IMG/VR virus record: IMGVR_UViG_3300034068_001182
Coordinates: 1-22,053 of that record
DNA from: a virus
Reading direction: 5' to 3' (one strand)
DNA length: 22,053 bases
The number at the start of each line of letters is the position of its first letter. The first letter of the stretch is position 1. Shown piece by piece: positions 1 to 17,770 of the stretch. The notes under the pieces are model-generated. The model ran no database searches, had not been told where the DNA came from, and saw nothing but the letters and a program-made list of their open reading frames with translations. A program made the translations under genes and the position numbers.

Positions 1-46
1 ACCCTATTTATTATTCTTTTTAATACCAAAACCCACATTTTTTCTG

Positions 47-81: not shown

Positions 82-336
82 ATGAAATTCATCCAACTCA
101 CGATACTCGTAATCGCCGCAATCGTTGCTGTACCAATGGTTGCAGCGCTTTTTGGACTCGTTGTTATGATCCGATTGTTCTGCGAATTGTATGATGCAAT
201 CAAGTTTGATCTCTCCAATTCTAGCTCAAAAAACACAAACAATACTGCCAAAAAATCCAACATTTGGGATGCGCATGTAAAGCGTATCAATGCTAAAAAG
301 AGTGCATTGAACTGTGAAAACGACAGCGCCAAATAA
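82..336 (+). CDS. small membrane protein, unknown function
   Basis: An 84-residue protein if started at ATG 82 (86 if started at the in-frame ATG 76). I prefer 82 because the predicted -10 at 70-75 is 6 bp upstream, matching the leaderless geometry of many genes here. Residues about 4-32 form one hydrophobic segment rich in I, V, A and L, followed by a polar, Ser/Asn/Lys-rich tail, so a single-pass inner-membrane protein is likely. No family is recognised. The last codons overlap the first copy of the ACTGTGA-N12-CAAATAA repeat (312-336), whose final TAA is the stop codon. Confidence 0.6.
   Translation: MKFIQLTILVIAAIVAVPMVAALFGLVVMIRLFCELYDAIKFDLSNSSSKNTNNTAKKSNIWDAHVKRINAKKSALNCENDSAK
312..336 (+). 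repeat. bipartite repeat ACTGTGA-N12-CAAATAA, copy a
   Basis: One of seven close copies in the first 1.03 kb with exactly the same distance between the two conserved halves. This one overlaps the 3' end of the first gene, so the motif is not confined to non-coding DNA. Confidence 0.55.
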
Positions 337-595
337 AGAGTCTGCACGTTTTTCATCTATGAATTAAAACTACCCAAATATAAGCACGACAAAAAACAGC
401 ACTCAGATCGGCTGTGGAGAACCAAGTCCCAAGCGAAAGGAACTTTTTTGACAAGCTTAAATGTCTGTTTTCTTTTTCTTTTTTGGCGGTCTACTTTAGA
501 ATTCCAAATTCACTTTTGCGCAAAGCACGATCTCTACTTCCCAAAGGGCTTGACGAACTATTTACTCAGGGTTCACACCTGTTCTAAACGCAAAA

Positions 596-620
596 CTGTG
601 AAAGCGAAACTTTCAAATAA
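596..620 (+). repeat. bipartite repeat ACTGTGA-N12-CAAATAA, copy b
   Basis: The variable centre can form a hairpin, GAAAG-CGAAA-CTTTC (600-614), flanked by the two conserved halves. Confidence 0.6.
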
Positions 621-653
621 CCGACCCGACAGTATTATTGTGCTGTCGCACCA

Positions 654-662
654 TGTTATACT
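654..662 (+). promoter_or_regulatory. extended -10 element
   Basis: TGTTATACT fits an extended -10 (TGn plus TATACT). No good -35 stands 16-18 bp upstream. It would give a leader of about 55 nt for the gene at 723. Confidence 0.35.
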
Positions 663-677
663 ATATATTACACAAAA

Positions 678-702
678 CTGTGAACCATTTCCATTCAAAT
701 AA
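678..702 (+). repeat. bipartite repeat ACTGTGA-N12-CAAATAA, copy c
   Basis: Same spacing as the other copies; GAA and TTC at the edges of the variable centre can pair. Confidence 0.55.
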
Positions 703-722
703 ACAAATAAATAAAAAAAAAT

Positions 723-926
723 ATGAACAACGAAACTGTGAGCGAAATTGAAGCAAATAACGAACTTATAAATTCTGTTGTCACTGACGAGCAGATCATG
801 GCGCAAAAGGAAATGATGCGTGCGCTGTATGAATCGATGCGGCGTGGCAAGCATTACAATCAGCGGCGTACCAAGGGAGCATTCGGATCATCTAAAAACA
901 AATACAAGCCCCAAACAAATCGCTAA
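723..926 (+). CDS. small basic protein, unknown function
   Basis: A 67-residue protein. The N-terminal half is acidic and helical (E, N, I-rich); the C-terminal half from about residue 39 is strongly basic (RRGK, QRRTKG, SKNKYK), so binding to nucleic acid is possible. Upstream is a run of A with no Shine-Dalgarno. An in-frame GTG at 738 is an alternative start: it coincides with the conserved GTGA of repeat copy d (736-760), which lies inside this frame. No family is recognised. Confidence 0.5.
   Translation: MNNETVSEIEANNELINSVVTDEQIMAQKEMMRALYESMRRGKHYNQRRTKGAFGSSKNKYKPQTNR
736..760 (+). repeat. bipartite repeat ACTGTGA-N12-CAAATAA, copy d
   Basis: Lies inside the 723-926 reading frame and ends in AAC rather than AAA. 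Spacing is unchanged. Confidence 0.5.
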
Positions 927-927
927 A

Positions 928-952
928 CTGTGAGCGCGAAAGCGCCAAATAA
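928..952 (+). repeat. bipartite repeat ACTGTGA-N12-CAAATAA, copy e
   Basis: The variable centre forms GCGC-GAAA-GCGC, a stem with a GNRA-type tetraloop (934-945). It lies just after the stop of the preceding gene. Confidence 0.6.
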
Positions 953-1010
953 ACAGTGCGACATTTTGTCACACCAAACTGTGAGCGAATTAATTGCAAA
1001 TAAACTATGA
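930..1010 (+). CDS. possible 26-residue micro-ORF with GTG start
   Basis: The frame begins at the GTG of repeat copy e, runs through copy f and ends at a TGA that overlaps the ATG of the next gene (CTATGA), an arrangement typical of translational coupling. The product would be MSAKAPNK followed by 18 more residues. The start depends wholly on the repeat, so this may be chance; confidence is low. Confidence 0.2.
   Translation: MSAKAPNKQCDILSHQTVSELIANKL
979..1003 (+). repeat. bipartite repeat ACTGTGA-N12-CAAATAA, copy f
   Basis: Spacing between the halves is identical to the other copies, and a weak 4-bp stem can form in the centre. Confidence 0.55.
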
Positions 1011-1029
1011 GCAAAAAAACGCCAAATAA
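1005..1029 (+). repeat. bipartite repeat, copy g (ACTATGA variant)
   Basis: The GTG of the other copies is ATG here and serves as the probable start codon of the 1007-1153 gene. CAAATAA is retained at the invariant distance. Confidence 0.5.
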
Positions 1030-3555: not shown

Positions 3556-3579
3556 TAAGTAAAATGCTAAATAATAAAT

Positions 3580-3604
3580 TTGTAAATAAATAAACGCCAA
3601 ATAA
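3580..3604 (+). repeat. divergent bipartite repeat (TGTAAAT ... CAAATAA), copy h
   Basis: TTGTAAAT then CGCCAAATAAG with the same phase as copies a-g (G of GT to C of CAAATAA = 16 bp). The first half is TTTGTAA rather than ACTGTGA. Confidence 0.4.
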
Positions 3605-10942: not shown

Positions 10943-11002
10943 AGCTGTAAGAAAGTAAGCTGTAAATAGATAAGCTGTAAATAGATAAGCTGTAAATAGG
11001 TA
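10943..11002 (+). repeat. tandem 15-bp repeats AGCTGTAAATAGATA
   Basis: AGCTGTAA recurs at 10943, 10958, 10973 and 10988, an exact 15-bp period; the last three carry the full unit. The surrounding gene-free stretch from 10879 to 11196 contains this array, a divergent bipartite repeat (10990-11014) and R7, and no gene that I can see. Confidence 0.85.
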
Positions 11003-11014
11003 TTCGCCAAATAG
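10990..11014 (+). repeat. divergent bipartite repeat (GCTGTAA ... CAAATAG), copy i
   Basis: Formed by the last tandem unit plus CGCCAAATAGA, with the same 16-bp phase as copies a-h. Confidence 0.4.
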
Positions 11015-15995: not shown

Positions 15996-16208
15996 ACACC
16001 ACATCCCCCCCCATTTCTCAAAAAAATCTAGAGCGCAAAGTCGCGCCAACGGCGGGGGGTGCCTTCCTTCAACCTCCCCTCCCCAATCCCACCAAACCAT
16101 ACCCTCCCCCCCATTGTTCGAAAACGTAGCACACTCATCGACTTCAACCCAAATAAAAGTGTAAAAAAATAAACAAGCCCCCGTCAACAAAACTAAAAAA
16201 ATAAAAAA

Positions 16209-17018
16209 ATGCCAGTTATAAAATACAGTCAAACACCAGTAACTATCACATATGAAGCGGGAGAAAATCTTGTAACTGCCAACTCTGCAAGTGTTTCATA
16301 TGCTGCATCTTTAGAACCATCGCGCATTCTTGCGCCAAATCAAAACAACAACTTCCGAATTAATGGACCTCTTGCCGCGAAAATATCCTTTAGTTTTGTC
16401 GCGTGTAATAAAACATCATACAATGCCGCAAACATATTGTTGAACTCTCTCACAGGCACTGGTTCTAGTTCTATTAGAATCGGCAATTCAGAGTTTTCTG
16501 GTTGTTTCTGCAACAGCGCATCTGTGGAAATTACTCCATTTGCGCCTGTGATTGTGAGCGCGGAATTTACCAGCACCAACATGATTGTCAATCAAGCTTT
16601 TGCGGCGGCAACTGGTGCGCCAGACACTGGAGAATTAAATGGATTTCTAGCACATGGATACAACACCGTTGTCAGCAATGGTGCATTGTTGTCGGATCAG
16701 AATTATGAATCTATTTCTTATCGAGTGAGTTGTGCGCGAACACCCACATTTGTTTTGGGGCAAGATAAATCAACAAATATGTTTTTAGACGGTGTGGAAA
16801 AAGAAGTAAGCATCAAAGCCACAAACATAGGTAATTTTATTGCTTACAGTGGATATGGAGATACTATAAATATAAATGTGAAAAACGATTTGGGCGCAAG
16901 CATCTTTACGCCGAACTTATCTATGTCGTCAAATTCGCGCATTGTTTCTCAAAATATATCAATATCAGAAAATTCGATTTTGGCAGGAGATATTTCATTG
17001 CGCGAGGTAATTCTATAA
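16209..17018 (+). CDS. putative virion structural protein
   Basis: A 269-residue protein rich in S, N, T, A, I and V with few charges, typical of beta-sandwich virion proteins. Contains a Ser/Asn-rich N-terminal half (ANSASVSYAASL), a two-Cys stretch (SGCFCNSAS), the strand-like PVIVSAEFTSTNMIVNQ and the C-terminal KEVSIKATNIGNFIAYSG. It could be a tail-tube, neck or minor capsid-decoration component; the sequence alone does not decide. It heads the plus-strand late-type block and has an A-rich leader without Shine-Dalgarno. Confidence 0.5.
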   Translation: MPVIKYSQTPVTITYEAGENLVTANSASVSYAASLEPSRILAPNQNNNFRINGPLAAKISFSFVACNKTSYNAANILLNSLTGTGSSSIRIGNSEFSGCFCNSASVEITPFAPVIVSAEFTSTNMIVNQAFAAATGAPDTGELNGFLAHGYNTVVSNGALLSDQNYESISYRVSCARTPTFVLGQDKSTNMFLDGVEKEVSIKATNIGNFIAYSGYGDTININVKNDLGASIFTPNLSMSSNSRIVSQNISISENSILAGDISLREVIL

Positions 17019-17026
17019 TTATACGG

Positions 17027-17040
17027 TGTAAATATAAATG
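17027..17040 (+). promoter_or_regulatory. candidate late-promoter-like AT motif
   Basis: TGTAAATATAAATG just upstream of the PhoH-like gene resembles the TATAAATA late-promoter box of T4-type phages. A similar GTGTAAATAAATATAG is at 17765. Assignment is tentative. Confidence 0.3.
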
Positions 17041-17041
17041 A

Positions 17042-17770
17042 ATGGCAAAGAAAAAACTCGATAAGTCGGGTTCTCTTGAGTTCCACCCTCAACTAGAACA
17101 TAAGATCAGAACAAGACCTCGTAAATTCAAATTTACAGACAAACAAGTTCGATTCTTAAATATCATACTCAATCCAGACAATTCTATTGTTTTTGTTTCT
17201 GGACCAGCAGGATCATCTAAAACTTACATGGCGATTTATGCGGCGATTCAACTCATGGCGGCGGATCGTGAAAAAGAACTTCTATATGTTCGAAGCATTG
17301 CCGAAAGTGCTGACAAAGGTTTGGGAAGTTTGCCAGGTGATATTGCTGAAAAGTTTGATCCATTCCTAATGCCTTTATACGACAAACTCGAAGAGATTGT
17401 GCAGCCGCAAGATGTTGCTTGGTTAAAGAAGCAAGAAATGATCAGTGCTGTGCCAATTAACTTTTTGCGCGGCGCAAGCTGGACAGACAAAATTGTTGTG
17501 GCAGATGAGTGCCAAAACTTCACCTTGAAAGAACTAACTACTTTGATTACAAGAGTTGGCGAAGGCACCAAGCTTATTATGTGTGGAGATACTATGCAAA
17601 GTGATATTGGTCAGCGCTCTGGATTTAAGAGTATGTTTAATTTGTTTAACGACAAAGAAAGCAAAGACAAAGGAGTGCAAACATTCTCATTCTCTCACGA
17701 AGATATTGTTCGCAGTGAAATTCTTAAGTTTTTAGTGTCTAAATTGGAAAAAATCGGAGCTACAGTGTAA
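17042..17770 (+). CDS. phoH: PhoH-like P-loop ATPase
   Basis: A 242-residue protein. FTDKQVRFL precedes Walker A G54-P-A-G-S-S-K-T61; later SLPGD (96-100), Walker B VVADE (152-156) followed by CQNFT, and the sensor-like CGD (181-183). These are PhoH-family hallmarks; phage PhoH proteins of this length are common in large marine and freshwater phages and their role is unresolved (RNA- or nucleotide-related functions have been proposed). A basic N-terminus precedes the domain. It stands between the structural gene and a strong hairpin terminator. Confidence 0.9.
   Translation: MAKKKLDKSGSLEFHPQLEHKIRTRPRKFKFTDKQVRFLNIILNPDNSIVFVSGPAGSSKTYMAIYAAIQLMAADREKELLYVRSIAESADKGLGSLPGDIAEKFDPFLMPLYDKLEEIVQPQDVAWLKKQEMISAVPINFLRGASWTDKIVVADECQNFTLKELTTLITRVGEGTKLIMCGDTMQSDIGQRSGFKSMFNLFNDKESKDKGVQTFSFSHEDIVRSEILKFLVSKLEKIGATV

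Follow-up and report, generated by a model that had tools for sequence, protein, structure and literature searches.

What reads the two-part repeat ACTGTGA-N12-CAAATAA that is clustered near the start of a virus sequence, and what is it for? We analyzed the 22,053-base virus record IMGVR_UViG_3300034068_001182 (positions 1 to 22,053, one strand), here called the window. A sequence-only reading had counted seven copies. Six of them are exact, located on the + strand at 311, 595, 677, 735, 927, and 978, and the seventh, at 1004 (+), has one mismatch in its left half (ACTATGA); the earlier coordinates were one base late, starting at the C of CTGTGA. This cluster of six exact copies and one one-mismatch copy spans positions 311–1029. 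Site 1 (ACTGTGA-aaacgacagcgc-CAAATAA, 311–336) lies across the stop codon of ORF 76–336, and site 2 (ACTGTGA-aagcgaaacttt-CAAATAA, 595–620) is non-coding, with both halves identical in the nearest relative, L206. Site 3 (ACTGTGA-accatttccatt-CAAATAA, 677–702) ends 20 nt before the ATG at 723, site 4 (ACTGTGA-gcgaaattgaag-CAAATAA, 735–760) is found within the N terminus of ORF 723–926, which encodes a 67-amino acid protein without a family, and site 5 (ACTGTGA-gcgcgaaagcgc-CAAATAA, 927–952) follows immediately 3' of the stop of that ORF. Site 6 (ACTGTGA-gcgaattaattg-CAAATAA) occupies 978–1003, and site 7 (ACTATGA-gcaaaaaaacgc-CAAATAA, 1004–1029), which reads ACTGTGA in L206, covers the ATG at 1007. 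The placement of copies across a stop, in a frame, after a stop, and over a start is as had been claimed, and the two divergent copies reported at 3580 and 10990 exist as well: the former (TTTGTAA-ataaataaacgc-CAAATAA, 3579–3604, +) scores 16.0 bits with a position weight matrix (PWM), and the latter reads GCTGTAA...CAAATAG. A degenerate + strand site at 412–437 (GCTGTGG...CAAGCGA) is the counterpart of an L206 copy at 1182 (GCTGCGA...CAAATAA). An inverted repeat, CGACAG-TATTATTGTG-CTGTCG, is located between sites 2 and 3 (595–660) and has one change in L206, and a near-palindrome, GTGYGACATTTTGTCRCAC, recurs beside sites in the window (952–975), in L206 (∼1720–1765), and in L272 and L275.

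The repeat is absent from the – strand of the window, and no exact copy appeared on either strand of 200 dinucleotide-preserving shuffles. The shorter pattern GTGA-N12-CAAATAA, allowing two mismatches, occurs 23 times in the window versus 10.3 expected, a number reached by 0 of 100 shuffles. CAAATA is found exactly 18 bp after CTGTGA for six of the seven + strand CTGTGA words, and the other CTGTGA-to-CAAATA distances shown for the window have one occurrence each. All 23 aligned copies contain the CAAATAA right half. An exact scan for both 7-base halves in viral contigs, used only as a control set, returned at least 119 stretches; the 80 listed have a single match per contig and no sign of kinship, which is the level of chance. 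These single matches and the AT-rich, common right half would suit a chance or compositional artefact, but the shuffles and the constraint and strand asymmetry among relatives (see below) already contradict that explanation, and its probability is negligible. In the literature searched, which was limited and in part available only as excerpts, we found no published description of this repeat.

Relatives were found in viral contigs via the RuvB-like ATPase gene and the PhoH gene, yielding 90 loci (54 of them non-redundant) around the RuvB-like gene. The phage records searched contain no isolate close to this group (the best PhoH match is ∼36%), and a host search in genome contigs returned one gene of 45% identity, on a contig binned to an uncultured bacterium (L310), the others being distant (21–27% identity). 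L206, which is part of the 112-kb record G001, contains the same region with six exact CTGTGA-N12-CAAATAA matches and one one-mismatch copy. Comparing the five copies shared with the window, 1 of 70 half positions differs when counted by hand on the alignment and 5 of 70 differ in an automatic, copy-by-copy blastn count, where we think that one copy was perhaps aligned elsewhere. Single copies turn over between these near relatives: site 6 is missing from this place in L206, and an L206 copy inside a small membrane-protein ORF is not found there in the window.

Scanning without a preset left word for at least three similar hexamers at a fixed distance upstream of YAAATAA, we obtained a signal at distance 18 on the + strand of 34 and on the – strand of 2 of the 54 non-redundant loci. 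It extends broadly over 16–22 bp, as expected for a conserved block of ∼9 bp. Halves occurring independently and with variable spacing would have spoken against a bipartite element; the 18-bp distance in the window and in these 34 loci does not bear this out, and the fixed spacing first proposed for the window recurs across relatives. Site sets are absent from 8 of the 54 loci, and several others give only a vague A-rich consensus.

Our comparison reveals a right half (YAAATAA) and a spacing (11 or 12 bp) that persist among relatives and a left half that depends on the lineage. The left half is CTGTGA in the window, L206, L209, L211, and L212; TTACGA or TTGCGA in L214, L256, L259, and L272; AGATCG or GATCGA in L225, L284, L296, L276, L251, and others; AGGTCA in L261 and L265; and AAATTA or AAATTT (AAATTW) in L282, L291, and L298. 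In some AGATCG phages the register is shifted by one base, giving an 11- instead of a 12-bp spacer. The left half has switched in concert in all main-array copies of a genome, with the right half unchanged, and such a concerted change across copies with different spacers is expected if a diffusible reader changed. Even the coding-sequence copy takes part: equivalents of site 4 lie close to where comparable small ORFs begin in L275 (TTACGA) and L250 (TTACAA), each carrying the left word of its own genome.

Homologous copies differ at 14 of 504 left-half positions (2.8%), 9 of 504 right-half positions (1.8%), 117 of 864 spacer positions (13.5%), and 399 of 4260 flank positions (9.4%), in a count that drew on 16 locus pairs (15 with data, L251/L253 giving none; L212/L213 and L209/L210 are almost identical) and on copies picked by the words that one member of each pair, the first, contained; this selection lowers the apparent half rates, at most about twofold. 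Both halves are constrained while the spacer drifts. The 12 middle bases, previously described as varying freely, are variable but follow a weak consensus, R-Y-G-A-W-W-W-W-N-S-G-C. Hairpins seen earlier in some spacers do not exceed chance: among 22 distinct spacers, pairing of the outer four bases is 1.41 compared with 1.20 after arms were exchanged among copies, and 16% of these exchanges are equally high. We rejected spacer hairpins on this basis, and conserved pairing as in a structured RNA element was not found in the spacer. A search of seven sources for Rfam families returned none except tRNA. The first 20 kb of G001 (L237, 1–20000) contain 17 tRNA genes and a tmRNA with the tag GNNKIVSFRKPNYSSKTVAFAA.

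In records of 112–148 kb, the copies occupy a single region. All seven matches of G001 lie at 110.4–111.1 of 112 kb; PWM scores above 20 bits occur only in this region, and matches elsewhere stay under 15 bits. The sites of G002 and of the TTACGA phages are likewise restricted to a single region, apart from an isolated reverse-strand match in the 148-kb record G003 (L214, L380). Offset by 124,371, the terminal 5.2 kb of G003 correspond to sequence close to the beginning of the record, with 4,784 of 5,177 positions equal in an ungapped comparison, which perhaps reflects a wrapped or strain-mixed assembly. Direct repeats that share one orientation number seven at the locus in the window, seven in G001, and four in L209. 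In 27 of the 54 non-redundant loci, chosen for a recognized lineage word and with loci and words both derived from the + strand signal, all 129 lineage-word sites share the strand of the RuvB-like gene (+), with none on the other. Ninety-three of these 129 sites are noncoding, compared with 27 expected from the noncoding share. Steps between sites (15, 26, and 34–36 bp) do not correspond to whole helical turns.

The array is coupled to a conserved noncoding tract (L206 673–865, L209 215–371, L211 8865–9013, and L284 8642–8760), which in many loci opens with a terminator-like repeat, continues with a pyrimidine-rich stretch and ∼100 nt of purine-rich sequence, and ends near GTGGATTCGC. A profile of the purine-rich tract, matching in relatives, identifies 37 of 90 loci versus 0 of 80 control loci; sites lie downstream of the tract in 32 of the 37, at 212–616 nt in 31 of these 32. 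By-eye comparison with L206 places the 3' end of the tract at positions 1–40 (+) of the window, the remainder lying beyond it. In CTGTGA and TTACGA phages, tract and array precede the RuvB-like gene; marine-type AGATCG phages have them ∼1.4–2.1 kb past its start. Their coupling holds in both gene arrangements, so that the block moves as one unit. AGATCG arrays sit in DNA without genes, and the L284 and L298 arrays are gene-free. As a structured RNA the purine-rich tract was rejected, RNAalifold returning only five pairs, all in the terminator-like repeat. GC skew was considered as an origin signal and none was seen; in none of four long records is the array accompanied by a switch in third-position GC skew, a sign that is usual for iteron-type origins though not obligatory. 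AT-rich sequence, considered as a possible opening region beside the repeats, is extreme around the array in the window, L209, and L275, near-extreme in L211, and ordinary in L284.

The divergent copy at 10990 closes a second, tandem array (10945–11014, +) of four overlapping CTGTAA-N12-YAAATAG sites, where the 18-bp distance returns every 15 bp and a fused word, CTGTAAATAG, provides the right half of one site and the left half of the next. Counterparts are found in L206, L209–L212, L214, and L275. In these loci and in the window, the array lies 7.5–9.4 kb past the RuvB-like gene's start and is made of overlapping CTGYRA-N12-YAAATA sites, with TTGYAA as the left word in L212. All eight second arrays are on the same (+) strand, and the flanking genes on both sides are on the – strand in the window, L206, L209, L211, and L214. 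L214 and L275 combine CTGYRA in the second array with TTACGA in the main array, so one reader cannot simply explain both, and two readers or two duties are possible. Around this array, between 3749 and 16129 (–), runs a series of small genes, between which GGGGCCCC stretches and GTAACTCGTTGA...TCAACGAGTTAC repeats are interspersed. No gapped repeat is more common in the window than TCGTT-N6-CAACG, and similar double repeats are present in distant phages (L261 13300–13390 and L284 9620–9700).

In the search for an initiator gene linked to the main array, only two proteins were noted nearby. The RuvB-like AAA+ ATPase (1535–2434, +) matches RuvB_N (5.9e-10), RuvB_C (1.5e-8), and a phage clamp-loader family (1.8e-17). 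Conserved upstream of it by alignment is a small AT-hook-like protein (KRRGRPAGS; 1257–1499, +), which occupies this position in 68 of 90 loci and has a conserved EEKIxFSITxF tail. No Pfam or PHROG family matched this protein. Assignment to a known fold was dropped, the model being weak (pLDDT 71, pTM 0.30) and without a PDB match. We consider it a candidate site binder. Among the proteins scanned, no initiator gene adjoining the array, no initiator family in Pfam or PHROGs, and no partition gene or recombinase was recognized.

We propose that the repeats are iteron-like double-stranded DNA sites for a phage-encoded protein, which would touch each site at two places ∼1.8 helical turns apart. 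Its left contact would be lineage-specific and would have changed together with its reader, and its right contact (YAAATAA) would have stayed constant. Same-orientation sites 3' of the purine-rich tract would form a cis-acting locus; the second array, of equal polarity, lies several kilobases away. The likeliest task would be replication initiation or its control, with the sites loading an initiator with fixed polarity. We assign this reading as a whole, iteron-like sites at a replication or replication-control locus, a probability of roughly 0.4; taken separately, the iteron-like nature of the DNA sites is probable, and a role in replication is a tentative assignment that falls somewhat short of even odds. 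Among the three readings offered from sequence alone, a two-contact protein site fits best because the halves are held, the spacer drifts, and the left half changes in concert, and the non-sigma-70 promoter and the short RNA motif are disfavored. Strict one-strand polarity, outlying copies included, is more than double-stranded DNA binding needs and stands against our proposal. Other points that weigh against it are the lack of a recognized initiator gene beside the array, the missing skew switch, the ordinary AT content near the L284 array, steps that are not whole turns of the helix, the differing left words of the two arrays in L214 and L275, the 11-bp register of AGATCG phages, and the loci with no site set or with only a vague consensus.

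In PMC7157519 and PMC7145576, direct-repeat iterons are described as initiator sites that are usually linked to the initiator gene, and an origin located within such a gene is described as well. The iterons covered there (P1 RepA; RepA_N origins, e.g. that of PLE of Vibrio cholerae) resemble our sites in being same-orientation direct repeats in a small, mostly noncoding region and in having a recognition word that varies between relatives. They differ in that each of our sites has a drifting 12-bp middle flanked by two short blocks that stay constant, with no initiator gene recognized beside the array and with a second, distant array of equal polarity. The conserved place of site 4 in coding sequence recalls the phage lambda-type origin inside an initiator gene, as far as PMC7157519 describes it; however, the protein containing site 4 belongs to no family, and most sites lie outside genes.

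Control of transcription is a competing explanation. T4 middle promoters consist of a MotA box plus a –10 element, and the sigma-70 –10 consensus is TAnnnT. By analogy, the sites could be operator or activator sites for an early small-gene region, with a phage factor reading the left half and the right half acting as a promoter element. As in T4, two blocks lie ∼12 bp apart, one predicted to be read by a phage factor; the sites are found just 3' of a promoter-like block, TATTACAC, in the window, L206, L209, L211, and L212, and around small-ORF starts, and the combination of an invariant right half and a left half that differs by lineage resembles a core element plus activator. Yet YAAATAA lacks the last T of the –10 consensus, the sites cluster in one locus rather than being spread before middle genes, some are located after stop codons and within ORFs, and the L284 and L298 arrays contain no genes. 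Promoters genome-wide also differ: GTGTAA precedes ATG in forward versus reverse orientation 15/4 times in G001, 21/5 in G002, 18/5 in G003, and 10/2 in G027, with 13, 17, 9, and 7 forward occurrences, respectively, 10–20 nt before the ATG (examples in the window are at 17020–17042 and 16160–16209). GTGTAA is a motif of its own, independent of lineage and probably a late promoter; as such a candidate it would give almost leaderless mRNAs. Its presence before genes across four long records from different lineages indicates that the array is not the general promoter, and we rejected the array as late promoter, since GTGTAA holds that place and the array motif is confined to one region. For the same two reasons a non-sigma-70 promoter is disfavored. 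Operator or activator sites we regard as unlikely. A protein-binding or processing site in early transcripts is quite improbable. Sites on one strand only, main-array sites in the sense of the local + genes, and a spacer that tolerates change would agree with such an RNA element, but spacer pairing is at chance level, the second array is antisense to its neighboring genes at five loci, which is unfavorable to an RNA element belonging to the local genes, and AGATCG arrays sit in gene-free DNA.

Partition, packaging, or recombination would place the sites in a centromere-like array, a pac-like site, or sites for shuffling small cassettes. The direct arrays adjoin a variable cassette region, single copies turn over between near relatives, and PMC7157519 describes a parS locus made of five direct repeats, so that parS-type centromeres of extrachromosomal phages share with our locus a short direct-repeat array forming a cis-acting locus. 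Unlike in those systems, no par genes were found among the proteins scanned, recombinases are likewise missing there, and the terminase gene is ∼20 kb distant, making this explanation rather improbable.

Returning to iteron-like sites, a broader claim may be ventured, although the odds are clearly against it: a strand-polar two-part cis-element of an undescribed class would mark the locus of replication (or segregation) in a large group of uncultured phages, with the left half rewritten between lineages, even inside coding sequence, and with right half, spacing, and purine-rich tract kept, amounting to natural recognition-code swaps in one protein-DNA system. If our proposal is true, a control locus has been located for a widespread phage group with records of 100–150 kb, and the YAAATAA array together with the purine-rich tract would serve as a marker for this locus in further contigs. 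The group would also offer numerous naturally occurring DNA sites with one contact rewritten and the other kept, and comparing them would make it possible to test whether a phage DNA-binding protein and its sites have co-evolved.
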